DNA of 46,309 nt from the NCBI GenBank assembly GCA_017381865.1, contig JAFOBJ010000035.1:1-46309 (forward strand). The letters run 5' to 3'. This stretch comes from Bacteroidales bacterium. GTDB taxonomy: Bacteria; Bacteroidota; Bacteroidia; Bacteroidales; F082. Every line of letters begins with the position of its first letter. The stretch's first letter is position 1. A model generated the notes under the pieces. The model ran no database searches, was not told the DNA's origin, and was given only the letters and a program-made list of their open reading frames with translations. The translations under genes were made by a program, and so were the position numbers. Shown one piece after another: positions 10,102 through 31,089 of this stretch.

Positions 10102-10109
10102 TATCTTTG
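10102..10109 (+). promoter_or_regulatory. -7 promoter box of gldE
   Basis: TATCTTTG matches the Bacteroidota -7 element exactly and follows the repeat-built terminator directly. It overlaps the first possible TTG start of gldE (10107), which rules that start out. Confidence 0.7.
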
Positions 10110-10133
10110 CACTCGAATTTAAATATCTTTATT

Positions 10134-11483
10134 TTGGAAATAGCTTCAATAGACCCTCTTATATGTATGCTGACATTGTCGGCAACGGAACCTTTTTTTA
10201 TTGGCGTATCAGCTAAAGTCGTTTTTTGTTTAATATTAATGTGTGCCTTGTTGCTTTGCTCGGCAATGGCTTCTTCAAGCGAAACAGCTTATTTTTCATT
10301 GCAACCAAACGACATCAACGAACTGGAATCTTCACAAAACCATAACGAACAACTGGTTCTCGAAATACGCCAAAAACCAAAAACTCTTCTTGTTACAATA
10401 CTTATTTTCAATAATTTAGTAAATATATCAATCACGATATTTTCTACTTACATCATGAGTATGATGTTTAATTTGGCGGTCAATCCTGTTGCGGCATTCA
10501 TCTTAAACGTTATCGTGGTGACATCATTGATATTGCTTGTAGGTGAAATGATTCCTAAAGTTTATGCTTCTAAAAAAGCAAAATCAATCGCAGTGTTAAT
10601 GGCTCCAATATTGAAAGTGCTTATCTTGATTTTCAAACCGTTAAGTAATGTTTTTGTCTCGTCAACATCTTTCATTGATAAGAAATTAGTGAAAAAAACA
10701 GGCTCTATCTCATTGAGCGACCTTTCAACTGCGGTAGATATAGCAACGGAAGAAGGAAGTTCTCCAGAAGAAAAAAATATGCTTAAAGGCATCGCTACAT
10801 TTGGAGAGAAAGAAGTCAGCGACATTATGCGTCCTCGCGTAAATATGTTTTCTGTTTCTTTAGAGACTGATTTTGAAGAACTTATGAAACAAGTCGTCGA
10901 TAAAGGATTTTCTAGGATTCCTGTGTATGATAAAGACCTTGACGATGTTAAAGGCATACTTTACGTTAAAGATTTGCTTCCTTATATTGATGAAAAGGAT
11001 TTCGCATGGCAGAAATTGTTGCGCCCTGCGTTCTTCGTACCAGAAAACAAAAAAATCAATGATTTGTTCCAAGATTTTAGAGCAAAGAAAATACATATCG
11101 CTATCGTTGTTGATGAATATGGCGGAACATCGGGATTGGTGACATTGGAAGATATCGTGGAAGAAATCGTCGGCGACATCAGCGATGAATTTGATAAAGA
11201 ACCTGAAAACGATAATTATAAGAAAATCGATAATGAGACGTATATATTTAAAGCTCAGATAAGTATCGTCGATTTCTGTAAAGTTTTCGGTATCAATGAC
11301 GATTATTTTGAAGAAATAGAAGGCGAATCTGATACACTCGCCGGAATTATTCTGGAAATGGAAGGCCGAATTCCTGAAATGGGATTCAAATGTTCATACA
11401 AAGAATTCACTTTCGAGATAGTCGAGTCTGATAACAAACACATTATTAAAATAAAAGTGATACGAAAAGATGAAAATATTTAA
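10134..11483 (+). CDS. gldE: GldE-like CBS-domain membrane protein (CorC/HlyC family)
   Basis: This integral membrane protein has a DUF21/CNNM-type N-terminal domain with 3-4 helices (signature SAMASSSETAYFSL). A pair of CBS domains follows (DIMRPRVNMFSV... and VDEYGGTSGLVTLEDIVEEIVGDI), then a C-terminal CorC_HlyC domain. In Bacteroidota the gene downstream of ssb and upstream of gldD is gldE, linked to gliding motility and to proteins of the CNNM/CorC cation-transport family. The start is uncertain. A TTG at 10107 falls inside the promoter. I chose the TTG at 10134; the ATG at 10167 is the alternative. The stop is followed at once by the heptamer array of gldD. Confidence 0.88.
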   Translation: MEIASIDPLICMLTLSATEPFFIGVSAKVVFCLILMCALLLCSAMASSSETAYFSLQPNDINELESSQNHNEQLVLEIRQKPKTLLVTILIFNNLVNISITIFSTYIMSMMFNLAVNPVAAFILNVIVVTSLILLVGEMIPKVYASKKAKSIAVLMAPILKVLILIFKPLSNVFVSSTSFIDKKLVKKTGSISLSDLSTAVDIATEEGSSPEEKNMLKGIATFGEKEVSDIMRPRVNMFSVSLETDFEELMKQVVDKGFSRIPVYDKDLDDVKGILYVKDLLPYIDEKDFAWQKLLRPAFFVPENKKINDLFQDFRAKKIHIAIVVDEYGGTSGLVTLEDIVEEIVGDISDEFDKEPENDNYKKIDNETYIFKAQISIVDFCKVFGINDDYFEEIEGESDTLAGIILEMEGRIPEMGFKCSYKEFTFEIVESDNKHIIKIKVIRKDENI

Positions 11484-11484
11484 T

Positions 11485-11589
11485 AGACAACGGACAATGG
11501 ACAACGGACAACAGTCAAAAGGTAAAATGCTCAAAGCTCAAAGCTCTGGGTTCAAAGTTCTTAGTTCTTAGTTCATTGTTAATTGCTCT
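11485..11589 (+). repeat. 15-unit heptamer array overlapping the 5' end of gldD
   Basis: Fifteen 7-base units run in unbroken register from just after the gldE stop into the gldD signal-peptide coding region. They drift in sequence from GGACAAC to AAGCTCA to TAGTTCT to TTGTTAA. Several adjacent units are identical or nearly so (two TTCTTAG in another rotation). Because 7 is not a multiple of 3, gain or loss of one unit changes the frame between any upstream start codon and gldD. Confidence 0.9.
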
Positions 11590-12136
11590 GTTTTCTTCCT
11601 GCGATAATAAGCAATATCAACCAAAACCAAGAGGCTACTTTAGAATAGATTTTCCTGAAAAACAATATGTTAAGCTTGATAGTATGAGCTATTACAGCTT
11701 CGAATATCCAACATATTCTATTATAACTCCTGATTATCTTTCTCTTCAAGAAAAAGAATGGGTCAATGTGGAATATCCAGCTTACAAAGGTACGATTCAT
11801 ATCAGCTATAAGACTGTAAATGATAATCTTAACGTATATCTTGAGGATTCATATTCAATGATGACTAAGCATATTTCTCGTGCTATGGGAATTAGAGATA
11901 GTGTTATCGTGAATCCTGATAGAAAAGTTTATGGATTGGTTTATTTTCTTGAAGGAGAAGGAGTTGCGTCACCAATGCAGTTCTATCTTACAGATAGTGT
12001 AAACCATTTCATGAGAGGCTCCCTTTATTTTAATGTTAAAACAAACAACGACTCTCTCGCTCCTGTTATCGATTTTATCCTCGACGACGTTCGTCATCTC
12101 ATTGAAACTATAGAGTGGAAGACGGTTGAAAATTGA
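11576..12136 (+). CDS. gldD: Gliding-motility lipoprotein GldD (start disrupted or phase-variable)
   Basis: The mature part begins at a lipobox cysteine (ALFSSC) and has the GldD signature KPRGYFRIDFPEKQY. GldD is a lipoprotein needed for gliding motility in Flavobacterium; in Bacteroidales its role is less clear. The first usual start codon in frame is this TTG, which leaves only eight residues before the Cys. The open frame continues upstream without ATG and encodes a plausible signal peptide, so a CTG at 11546 is possible. The nearest ATG (11527) is out of frame by one heptamer and meets TAG at 11569-11571. The stop TGA lies in a second heptamer array. The product call is firm, the start is not. 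Confidence 0.82.
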   Translation: MLIALFSSCDNKQYQPKPRGYFRIDFPEKQYVKLDSMSYYSFEYPTYSIITPDYLSLQEKEWVNVEYPAYKGTIHISYKTVNDNLNVYLEDSYSMMTKHISRAMGIRDSVIVNPDRKVYGLVYFLEGEGVASPMQFYLTDSVNHFMRGSLYFNVKTNNDSLAPVIDFILDDVRHLIETIEWKTVEN

Positions 12137-12216
12137 AAACTGAAAATTGAAAGTCAATAGTCAGAGTCAAAAGTTAAAAAAATCTTTCGTCTTTTGTCTT
12201 TTGTTTTTTGACTTTT
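12125..12216. repeat. Heptamer repeats at the 3' end of gldD
   Basis: TTGAAAA, CTGAAAA and TTGAAAG units with a 7-base period supply the last codons and the TGA stop of gldD. They continue into TCAATAG/TCAGAG units and, after an A-run, TGTCTTT-type units up to the corA promoter. Confidence 0.8.
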
Positions 12217-12218
12217 TT

Positions 12219-12226
12219 TATCTTTG
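12219..12226 (+). promoter_or_regulatory. -7 promoter box of corA
   Basis: TATCTTTG matches the Bacteroidota -7 consensus. A TTTG lies 22 bases upstream (12193-12196). The leader to the corA ATG is about 70 bases. Confidence 0.65.
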
Positions 12227-28410: not shown

Positions 28411-30621
28411 ATGAAAAAAATACTCTTTTCTATACTATGTTTATTTTTATTAACATTTGATGTTAAAGCAGAAGTCATAAATCCTGAAGCGGTTACAGAT
28501 TTTCTTAATAGAATTTTTGGTCAACAAACAACTATCAACGGTCAACAGCCAATCCTCACTATTTTAGACGAAAATTTAGACCAACAGTCAATGGTCAATA
28601 GTCAATGGTCAACAGTCAATGGTCAAAATCCAGATGTTTTTATTATCACATCAAAAGACGGCAAACCCTGTGTGAAAGGGAATTCTATTTTGGCAATAAC
28701 GACAGGTATCAATTGGTATCTTAATCATTATGCCAATATAAATATTTCTTGGAATCAGCTCACTATCAATGATATTGATAATTATAAATTCCCACTTCCT
28801 GAAAATGAAGAACGTCATATTTGTTCTGCCGATTATCGTTATTATCTTAATTACTGCACTTTTTCTTATTCGATGTCAACTTGGACTTGGGAGCGTTGGG
28901 AAAAAGAAATCGATTGGATGGCGCTGCATGGAATCAATATGCCTTTGCAGATTGTCGGTCTTGATGTGGTTTGGAAAAGATTGTTAACAGAATTTTACAA
29001 TTACACCTCAGAGGAAGCGAACGATTTCGTTGCGGGCCCTTGTTTTCAGGCTTGGTGGGGAATGAATAACCTTGAATCTTGGGGCGGTCCGAATCCAGAT
29101 TGGTGGTATGAGCGTCAGTCCGTTTTGGCGAGAAAGATATGCAACAGAATGCGAGAACTCGGCATGCAGCCCGTGCTTCCTGGGTTCAGCGGTATGGTGC
29201 CGAGTAATTTTACAGAAAAGACAGGAATATCGGCGAATGGACAAGGCGACTGGTGTGGATTTACGCGACCTCATATCTTGAATCCGAATAATGATGACTT
29301 TAAGACGATGGCTGCCAACTATTATAAAGTGCTTCAGGAGGTTATGGGATCATCGCAATATTACAGCATGGACCCGTTTCACGAGGGCGCAAATACGAAC
29401 GACATCGACGTGGCTTCTGCATATAAAGCCATCGCCGATGCTATGTTTGCGGCAAATGACAAAATTGATGAGAAATGGGTGATTCAATATTGGCAGTGGA
29501 ATGCTGAACAATATTATGTACTTGATCAAGTGGAGAAAGGCGATTTGGTAATACTTGATTTGTTTTCGACGGCGCACACGCATTTTCTGGAATACAAAGG
29601 CCATGACGCCGTCTATTGTATGTTGCCTAACTTCGGAGGTCGCTCTGGCTTCATGGGGCGTTTCAATGGTGTGATTGATGGTTATTTTGAAAATAAAAAT
29701 TTGCATTCTAACATAAAAGGAATAGGCGCAACTCCTGAAGCTATTGGCTCAGTGCCAGTTTTATACGACATTTTGTTTGAATTGCCTTGGCATGATGAAA
29801 AACCAGACGCTAAAGAATGGATGCGCAATTATACCATAAGTCGTTATGGCGTTGAAAACGAGTACGCACTGCAGGCTTGGGAATTATTAAGAAACTCTGC
29901 TTTGGATTGCAAGACCTCGCTTCAAGGTCCGCACGAAGCTGTGATATGCGCACGTCCTTCGCTTACAGTTGATAAAGTATCGTCATGGGGAGGAACGGAA
30001 ATTTTTTACAATCATAATGATGTCATAGAAGCTTCTCATCTGTTGCTAAAAGCTGATTTGTCGGGAAAGAATTATAATTTCGATTTGATTGAAATATCGC
30101 GTCAGGCTTTGATGGATTATGCTTATTTTTTGTTAAAAGATATTAAGAAATCGCATGAGAACTCTGATGCTGACTTTGACTCTAAATGTAAGATGTTCTT
30201 GAATTTGATAAAAGATATTGATAAATTGCTCAATACAAACGAGAATTTTATGTTAGGTCAATGGACGCAGATGGTGCGCGCTATCGCTGATGAAGTGGAA
30301 GGTACGACGGAAGCTGACAAGGATTGGCTGGAACTGAATAACGCTCGCACTCTAATAACGACTTGGGGCGATGAAATCAATGCCAACAAAGGCGGTCTGC
30401 GTGATTATTCATACAGAGCATGGAGCGGAATGTTAAAGGATTTTTACTATCCACGATGGGAATATTTCTTTGAAAATGATTTGCAATCGCCCAAAGAAAG
30501 CTGGTTTAAAATGGAGAGAAGTTGGGCTCTTGATAAGAATTTGAGTTATTCTAATGAACCACAAGGTGATACCAAGAAAGTCCTGAAGAAAGTCTGGAAA
30601 AAATATCTATCTACAAAATGA
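28411..30621 (+). CDS. Alpha-N-acetylglucosaminidase (GH89)
   Basis: This 736-residue secreted enzyme is of the NAGLU family, removing alpha-linked GlcNAc from glycosaminoglycans or mucin glycans. A signal peptide (about 1-20) is followed by the N-terminal domain, the TIM barrel (YRYYLNYCTFSYSMSTWTWERWEKEIDWMALHGIN near 137-171) and a helical C-terminal domain. Two acidic active-site motifs are visible, DPFHEG and GATPEAI. Residues about 38-73, in the linker after the signal peptide, are encoded by heptamer repeats and read as Gln/Asn/Ser-rich low complexity. The rest is intact. Confidence 0.93.
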   Translation: MKKILFSILCLFLLTFDVKAEVINPEAVTDFLNRIFGQQTTINGQQPILTILDENLDQQSMVNSQWSTVNGQNPDVFIITSKDGKPCVKGNSILAITTGINWYLNHYANINISWNQLTINDIDNYKFPLPENEERHICSADYRYYLNYCTFSYSMSTWTWERWEKEIDWMALHGINMPLQIVGLDVVWKRLLTEFYNYTSEEANDFVAGPCFQAWWGMNNLESWGGPNPDWWYERQSVLARKICNRMRELGMQPVLPGFSGMVPSNFTEKTGISANGQGDWCGFTRPHILNPNNDDFKTMAANYYKVLQEVMGSSQYYSMDPFHEGANTNDIDVASAYKAIADAMFAANDKIDEKWVIQYWQWNAEQYYVLDQVEKGDLVILDLFSTAHTHFLEYKGHDAVYCMLPNFGGRSGFMGRFNGVIDGYFENKNLHSNIKGIGATPEAIGSVPVLYDILFELPWHDEKPDAKEWMRNYTISRYGVENEYALQAWELLRNSALDCKTSLQGPHEAVICARPSLTVDKVSSWGGTEIFYNHNDVIEASHLLLKADLSGKNYNFDLIEISRQALMDYAYFLLKDIKKSHENSDADFDSKCKMFLNLIKDIDKLLNTNENFMLGQWTQMVRAIADEVEGTTEADKDWLELNNARTLITTWGDEINANKGGLRDYSYRAWSGMLKDFYYPRWEYFFENDLQSPKESWFKMERSWALDKNLSYSNEPQGDTKKVLKKVWKKYLSTK
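28582..28630 (+). repeat. In-gene heptamer array in the GH89 coding sequence
   Basis: Six perfect-register units of CAACAGT, CAATGGT or CAATAGT and one CAAAATC form the core. A more degenerate stretch of the same type begins near 28525. Three units equal seven codons; any other change in copy number would break the frame. Confidence 0.9.
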
Positions 30622-31089
30622 AAAACTATCCACGAATCCACACGAAATCACACGAAAGTTTTTAGTGTCGATTAGTGCAGTTTAGTTGAAAACCATCCAC
30701 GAATCCTCACGAAATCACACGAAAGTTTTAGTGTCGATTAGTGTAGTTTAGTGGAAAACTATCCACGAATCCTCACGAAATCACACGAAAGTTTTAGTGT
30801 CTATTAGTGTAGTTTAGTGGAAAACTATCCACGAATCCACACGAAATCACACGAAAGTTTTAGTGTCTATTAGTGCAGTTTAGTGGAAAAACTATCCACG
30901 AATCCACACGAAATCACACGAAAGTTTTAGTGTCGATTAGTGCAGTTTAGTGGAAAACAATCCACGAATCCTCACGAAAACACACGAAAGTTTTTAGTGT
31001 CGATAGTGTAGTTTAGTGGAAAACTATCCACGAATCCTCACGAAATCACACGAAAGTTTTAGTGTCGATTAGTGCAGTTTAGTGGAAAA
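30621..31089. repeat. Seven tandem copies of a 66-bp repeat
   Basis: Seven head-to-tail copies of a 66-68 bp unit fill the gap between the GH89 and YitT genes. Each begins AAAACTATCCACGAATCC and ends GTGCAGTTTAGTGG, with a few point differences. Within a unit, CACGAA recurs three times at an 8-10 base period and TAGTG three times in the second half. No spacers are present and no gene is open across it. The array ends directly at a terminator. Confidence 0.95.

Follow-up and report, generated by a model that had tools for sequence, protein, structure and literature searches.

The junction of gldE and gldD in the window (the whole stretch of 46,309 nucleotides analyzed here, contig JAFOBJ010000035.1 of the Bacteroidales assembly GCA_017381865.1) raises the question of how gldD can be expressed when its signal-peptide region is encoded by a heptamer array and both upstream ATGs lie outside the gldD frame. 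The preliminary description of this DNA had proposed a contingency switch, with slippage of whole repeat units turning gldD on or off. The features of the junction, together with two further arrays of the window, are as follows:

10107..11483, + strand: gldE, the upstream gene, encoding a CBS-domain gliding-associated protein (TIGR03520; ORF); its last codons overlap ATG 11470, and its listed TTG start (10107) is a mechanical ORF call.
11470..11472, + strand: ATG overlapping the end of gldE, at the position of the gldD start in six array-bearing relatives, here out of the gldD frame.
11485..11589, + strand: degenerate heptamer array covering the gldD signal-peptide region, with GACAACG-type, GCTCAAA-type and TTCTTAG-type blocks (lag-7 test, unit list, phase break).
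11527..11571, + strand: short out-of-frame ORF, from ATG 11527 to TAG 11569-11571 (translation).
11546..11602, + strand: candidate non-ATG start, CTG 11546, with 18 signal-peptide residues before the Cys at 11600-11602 (gldD-frame translation).
11576..12136, + strand: gldD from its first usual start, a TTG, with the mature lipoprotein beginning at Cys 11600 (TIGR03512; dN/dS 0.059 vs. its nearest relative).
12117..12164, + strand: another period-7 array, overlapping the 3' end of gldD.
28581..28628, + strand: heptamer array translated as part of a NAGLU-family gene (28411-30621).

The gene assignments made earlier held, with GldE matching TIGR03520 at E 7e-151 and GldD matching TIGR03512 over its full length at 219 bits (vs. 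a cut-off of 120), and the frame arithmetic of the preliminary description proved correct by translation. The gldD frame is open after TGA 11471-11473, leaving 42 codons up to the Cys, and the first ATG, GTG or TTG within it is TTG 11576, only 8 residues before the Cys; window gldD has no other usual start codon and hence no lipoprotein signal peptide that begins from one. ATG 11470 and ATG 11527 share one frame, which is not that of gldD and runs into the stop at TAG 11569-11571, and ATG 11470 lies 130 nt from the Cys, one more than a multiple of three. Because both ATGs are one base off, ordinary initiation should yield no lipoprotein from the window allele, and we infer from its frames that this allele is off.

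The array itself is real but less regular than first described. Period 7 over 11485-11589 was supported by 70 of 98 lag-7 matches, vs. a mean of 25.1 (sd 4.4, maximum 42) in 5000 dinucleotide shuffles. The fifteen units in exact register of the preliminary description did not survive scrutiny: neighboring units agree at only 3 to 7 of 7 places, the CAA spacings run 7, 7, 7, 7, 16, 7, 14 and thus reveal a phase break, and both our own array detector and Tandem Repeats Finder divided the stretch into separate arrays. We accordingly rejected a uniform 15-unit array for about three sub-blocks with a phase break, the purest run of which is 19 bp, or about 2.7 units.

Despite its lack of a usual start, window gldD has an intact mature part that is under purifying selection, as evidenced by: 1) a mature protein of 178 residues, vs. 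174 in three relatives; 2) 150 identical residues among 170 compared with the nearest relative (G076, locus L031); and 3) a dN/dS of 0.059 in the same comparison, with dS at about 1.1. The surrounding genome also encodes GldL and gives 101 matches to the type IX secretion system (T9SS) sorting domain TIGR04183. In a gldD transposon mutant of Flavobacterium psychrophilum, many T9SS cargo proteins were reported to be reduced outside the cell (PMC5682007), which suggests that loss of gldD should matter. The absence of a usual start could in principle mark a fixed loss, with gldD turning into a pseudogene in this lineage; given the 178 intact mature codons, the low dN/dS, and the GldL and sorting-domain matches, we consider this highly improbable.

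To place the junction in context, we compared it with those of relatives, with 106 distinct gldE-gldD junctions being readable among 151 loci with a GldD match. The window was the sole junction among the 106 to lack an ATG, GTG or TTG 14 or more codons upstream of the Cys, and four of the other 105 had only GTG or TTG at that distance. This bears on the reading that gldD is ON by way of a non-ATG start, most simply CTG 11546, the old ATG having been lost to frame drift and replaced. The 42 open codons up to the Cys, the purifying selection on gldD, and the CTG-initiated peptide, which by eye resembles a normal lipoprotein signal and has 18 residues, are all consistent with such a start. On the other hand, CTG starts are rare, the other 105 junctions all have a usual start, and the leader RNA of window gldD did not fold better than its composition predicts (z -1.27). 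We regard initiation at CTG as possible but unlikely.

The window belongs to a clade of 11 sampled species (100/100 tree support), in seven of which the gldD signal-peptide region contains a period-7 or period-8 array. Nine junctions in all passed the array threshold, but two outside this clade (L139 and L011) were not counted as array-coded signal peptides because each has its array on the 5' side, with an in-frame ATG coming after it. In all seven array-bearing species, an ATG overlaps the final codons of gldE, and the distance from this ATG to the Cys in the six relatives of the window was 99, 129, 111, 102, 141 and 111 nt, all divisible by three (a result with a chance of (1/3)^6, or about 0.0014, if frames were random). 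Stops were also counted from a point 16 nt ahead of where the gldE stop codon ends up to the Cys. In the six relatives, the gldD frame contains none across the array, vs. 1-4 in each of the other two frames; the three frames of the window have 1 (TGA 11471, in the gldD frame), 1 and 5. The earlier proposal that the array serves as coding sequence for the signal peptide was thus borne out by the relatives, in which such an array runs in frame and free of stops as the signal peptide of GldD, and the proposal that a change in unit number would shift the gldD frame also stood.

The array units at gldD differ from species to species within the clade, and when the presence of an array is mapped on the tree, four gains or losses are needed, two of which are forced by starred branches, with the sister species G080 and G009 differing in this trait. 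Arrays at gldD thus come and go, and the arrays themselves may not be homologous among species, although a single gain with later losses is conceivable.

Two further array-coded signal peptides were found in this genome, belonging to a Plug protein of type IX secretion (PF17116) and to an efflux protein of the outer membrane (OEP, PF02321), both picked because arrays had been noticed here and therefore not a blind choice. Defining an array-coded signal peptide as one with at least 18 of 28 matches at lag 7 or 8, we found 23 of 32 GldD, Plug and OEP orthologues in the 11 species to be array-coded, whereas none of the 32 loci passed the same threshold at the control lags 4, 5, 10 and 11. (Eleven OEP loci were examined; the set of 32 omits a second OEP copy in G063, which is also an array and in frame, and G062 has no close OEP orthologue.) Of the 23 array-coded loci, 22 had an ATG in frame and 14 or more codons ahead of the point where the signal region ends, the exception being window gldD. 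Because 22 of 23 are in frame, we surmise that the arrays of the relatives are translated in the cell and that selection seems to keep their reading frame. The Plug gene itself (L181 16518-17837, - strand) has an array-coded signal peptide in 8 of the 11 species, making the trait common to two T9SS-linked proteins.

Array coding as a general rule for signal peptides was rejected. Among 184 signal-peptide-like ORFs of the genome, the threshold of 18 of 28 matches was reached by 3 at lag 7, by none at lag 8, and by 1, 1, 2 and 0 at lags 4, 5, 10 and 11, respectively. Of the three found at lag 7, one (L175) is unclear as a signal peptide and another (L187) has an ATG further on. These counts come from a classifier that requires an ATG and consequently misses window gldD; the OEP gene was missed as well.

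A comparison with the nearest relative, whose GldD is 87% identical and whose gldD reads MNRQQTTVQSSKFKVQSAKFLVLSSLFFILFSSC continuously across its heptamers, speaks to how the frame of the window may have been lost. Relative to this locus, the window is longer by 9 nt before the array and by 22 nt within it, the part after the array being of equal length. Although approximate for species this far apart (dS about 1.1), a difference of 22 nt equals 3 x 7 + 1, so that a one-base change accounts for the frame equally well as a change of a unit. This is pertinent to the contingency reading, in which unit slippage toggles gldD, and hence gliding or type IX secretion, with the assembly having caught an OFF majority. 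In favor of it, a repeat unit not divisible by three does lie between the conserved ATG and the lipobox with its coding body, and a conserved, intact gene fits a reversible OFF state; however, the long pure tract prone to slippage is lacking at gldD (19 bp at best), 22 of the 23 comparable arrays are in frame, and the array does not differ from that of the nearest relative by whole units. We consequently hold the switch put forward in the preliminary description to be distinctly unlikely, while recognizing that rate is the sole difference between a slow slip and a true switch.

An error of sequencing or assembly, or a collapse of mixed strains, affecting a single base or a single unit of this repetitive stretch, would give the same picture. 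The window alone deviates among 23 array-coded loci and 106 junctions, and the genome bin is 79% complete in 99 contigs, as such an error would have it. In contrast, the array is short vs. usual read lengths and its units differ, and misassembly is not expected of such a stretch. Moreover, when 42 ORF rows (mechanical ORFs, inspected by eye rather than by a frameshift search) were examined, there was no second clear signal peptide stranded upstream of a first start; one of them, L189, has a hydrophobic array stretch at this place, its protein seeming complete without it. An error therefore appears doubtful to us.

The preliminary description had also remarked that two frames of the array each give a credible signal peptide, and had taken this to suggest that the array itself evolved as signal sequence. 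We rejected the notion that this calls for a special history, as any sequence of period 7 behaves in this manner: a pure heptamer array encodes an identical seven-residue peptide, rotated, in all three frames because 7 = 1 mod 3. Ohno is said to have pointed out that a repeat whose unit is not a multiple of three is read as the same peptide whatever the frame, an idea that accounts for the similar peptide in each frame of these arrays, with bacterial signal peptides here providing a natural case. A peptide that does not depend on frame leads one to predict steps of 21 nt in the length of coding arrays. The array stretch of the NAGLU-family gene is 7 residues (21 nt, three units) longer than that of G080; against G076 there is the same 7-residue gap, but with two residues the opposite way, a net of 5 that is not a multiple of 7. 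This insert is absent from 4 of the 8 relatives aligned.

Beyond these genes, such arrays are common in the genome, a point that the preliminary description did not contain. In 796,981 bp (58 records comprising 57 stretches and the window, two all-N records having been removed), we found 177 period-7 and 110 period-8 arrays, vs. 0 and 0 in a second-order Markov control, and 0-13 arrays at each of the other periods from 4 to 12 at the same threshold. Placed against mechanical ORFs of at least 100 codons, which cover 88% of bases, 105 of 179 period-7 arrays (a count that includes the two all-N records) lay between ORFs, 25 overlapped a 5' end, 36 overlapped a 3' end and 13 were internal to an ORF. 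These are the traits of a genome-wide heptamer family, with many arrays mostly outside genes, except that there is no one conserved unit, the units varying within and between loci. The five close loci (L031-L035) carried 5 arrays, or 1.61 per 10 kb, whereas 12 arrays were found in 41 loci that are more distant (0.48 per 10 kb) and 4 in 34 outside loci (0.19 per 10 kb), so that array density seems to fall with distance. Among skewed array pairs within 120 nt in the 58 records, counted at a looser threshold (476 arrays vs. 22 in the control), an A-rich array preceded a T-rich one in 17, the reverse order occurred in 1, and the two were alike in 16. Within coding sequence, the order of A then T results in a polar stretch followed by a hydrophobic one, which is the layout of a signal peptide.

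On balance, we think it probable that the gldD array belongs, as one of the coding members, to a large population of degenerate 7- and 8-bp arrays in this genome, and that the frame in the window was lost by an ordinary indel and not by a programmed switch. We postulate that, in this clade of gut Bacteroidales, arrays came to encode the gldD signal peptide, often with an A-rich block coding for the polar N-terminal part and a T-rich one for the hydrophobic core. Since roughly the same peptide results from each frame, arrays would readily be taken up as signal peptides or loops, and a change in length by 21 nt would do no harm. The sequence of the array would then turn over between species, with selection holding the frame from the ATG that overlaps the end of gldE. 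Window gldD would be the exception, its array putting both ATGs one base out of frame, and the most likely cause would be an ordinary, recent indel in the array, either in the organism or in the assembly. We judge an occasional indel to be most likely, a CTG start to be second and a standing contingency switch to be lower; in other words, an occasional slip, or else an atypical start, seems a better account of the out-of-frame gldD array than a dedicated on/off switch does.

Several known systems resemble these arrays in part. TAACTGA heptamer repeats were reported from Beggiatoaceae, Cyanobacteria and five Bacteroidetes (MacGregor 2015, PMC4679880), where a single genome has more than 100 sets of 7-bp direct repeats; most of these are intergenic and close to start codons, and some overlap the end of an ORF. 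Like those repeats, the present arrays form many 7-bp sets per genome; however, TAACTGA is, as reported there, one fixed unit with stops in all three forward frames, whereas the arrays here have many degenerate 7- or 8-bp units and are open in frame as signal peptides and loops. In Haemophilus influenzae, heptanucleotide repeats lie upstream of hmw1A, between promoters, and constructs with 13-24 repeats have been described (PMC8262952). Both loci thus have 7-bp tandem units 5' of a surface or secretion gene, but the hmw1A repeats as described number 13-24 and lie between promoters, in contrast to about 2.7 pure units at gldD that are coding and known from one assembly. The tandem repeats of Borgs, which are archaeal extrachromosomal elements, likewise change fast and enter ORFs, and the repeat proteins are reported to be enriched in signal peptides (PMC9879509); their in-ORF units are described as divisible by three, unlike the units of 7 or 8 here, which are coding yet open. 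Our literature search found no paper joining gldD, phase variation and a tandem repeat, and, within titles and the openings of abstracts, no heptamer arrays serving as signal peptides, the latter reflecting the limit of the search rather than proof.

Non-triplet repeats are usually thought to be excluded from coding sequence unless they act as switches. Several genes in this group of gut Bacteroidales have heptamer or octamer arrays as signal peptides and keep the frame even as the repeats diverge from one species to the next, so that one can observe directly how signal peptides arise and are replaced. A further consequence is that gene callers may misplace starts at array-coded loci, and that one slip could silence a T9SS-linked lipoprotein. 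As a tentative and rather speculative extension, the degenerate 7- and 8-bp arrays of this clade might be a source, renewable and tolerant of frame, from which secretion signals and loops are drawn, colonizing gene ends and being recruited by T9SS-related and outer-membrane proteins, with slips occasionally silencing or reviving genes such as gldD; N-termini would then evolve by repeat turnover, and some loci might be phase-variable.

Further arrays and repeats were seen at other places. The 3' end of gldD meets arrays as well (12117-12226), with an A-rich block followed by a T-rich block in a terminator-like stretch, the fold of which was no better than that of shuffles (z -0.29). Another in-frame heptamer insert lies at L172 12328-12409 (- strand ORF), within a 755-codon open frame that we take by eye to be ClpB/ClpC-like. 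Immediately 3' of the NAGLU-family gene, the window carries about seven copies of a 66-bp repeat (30622-31089).
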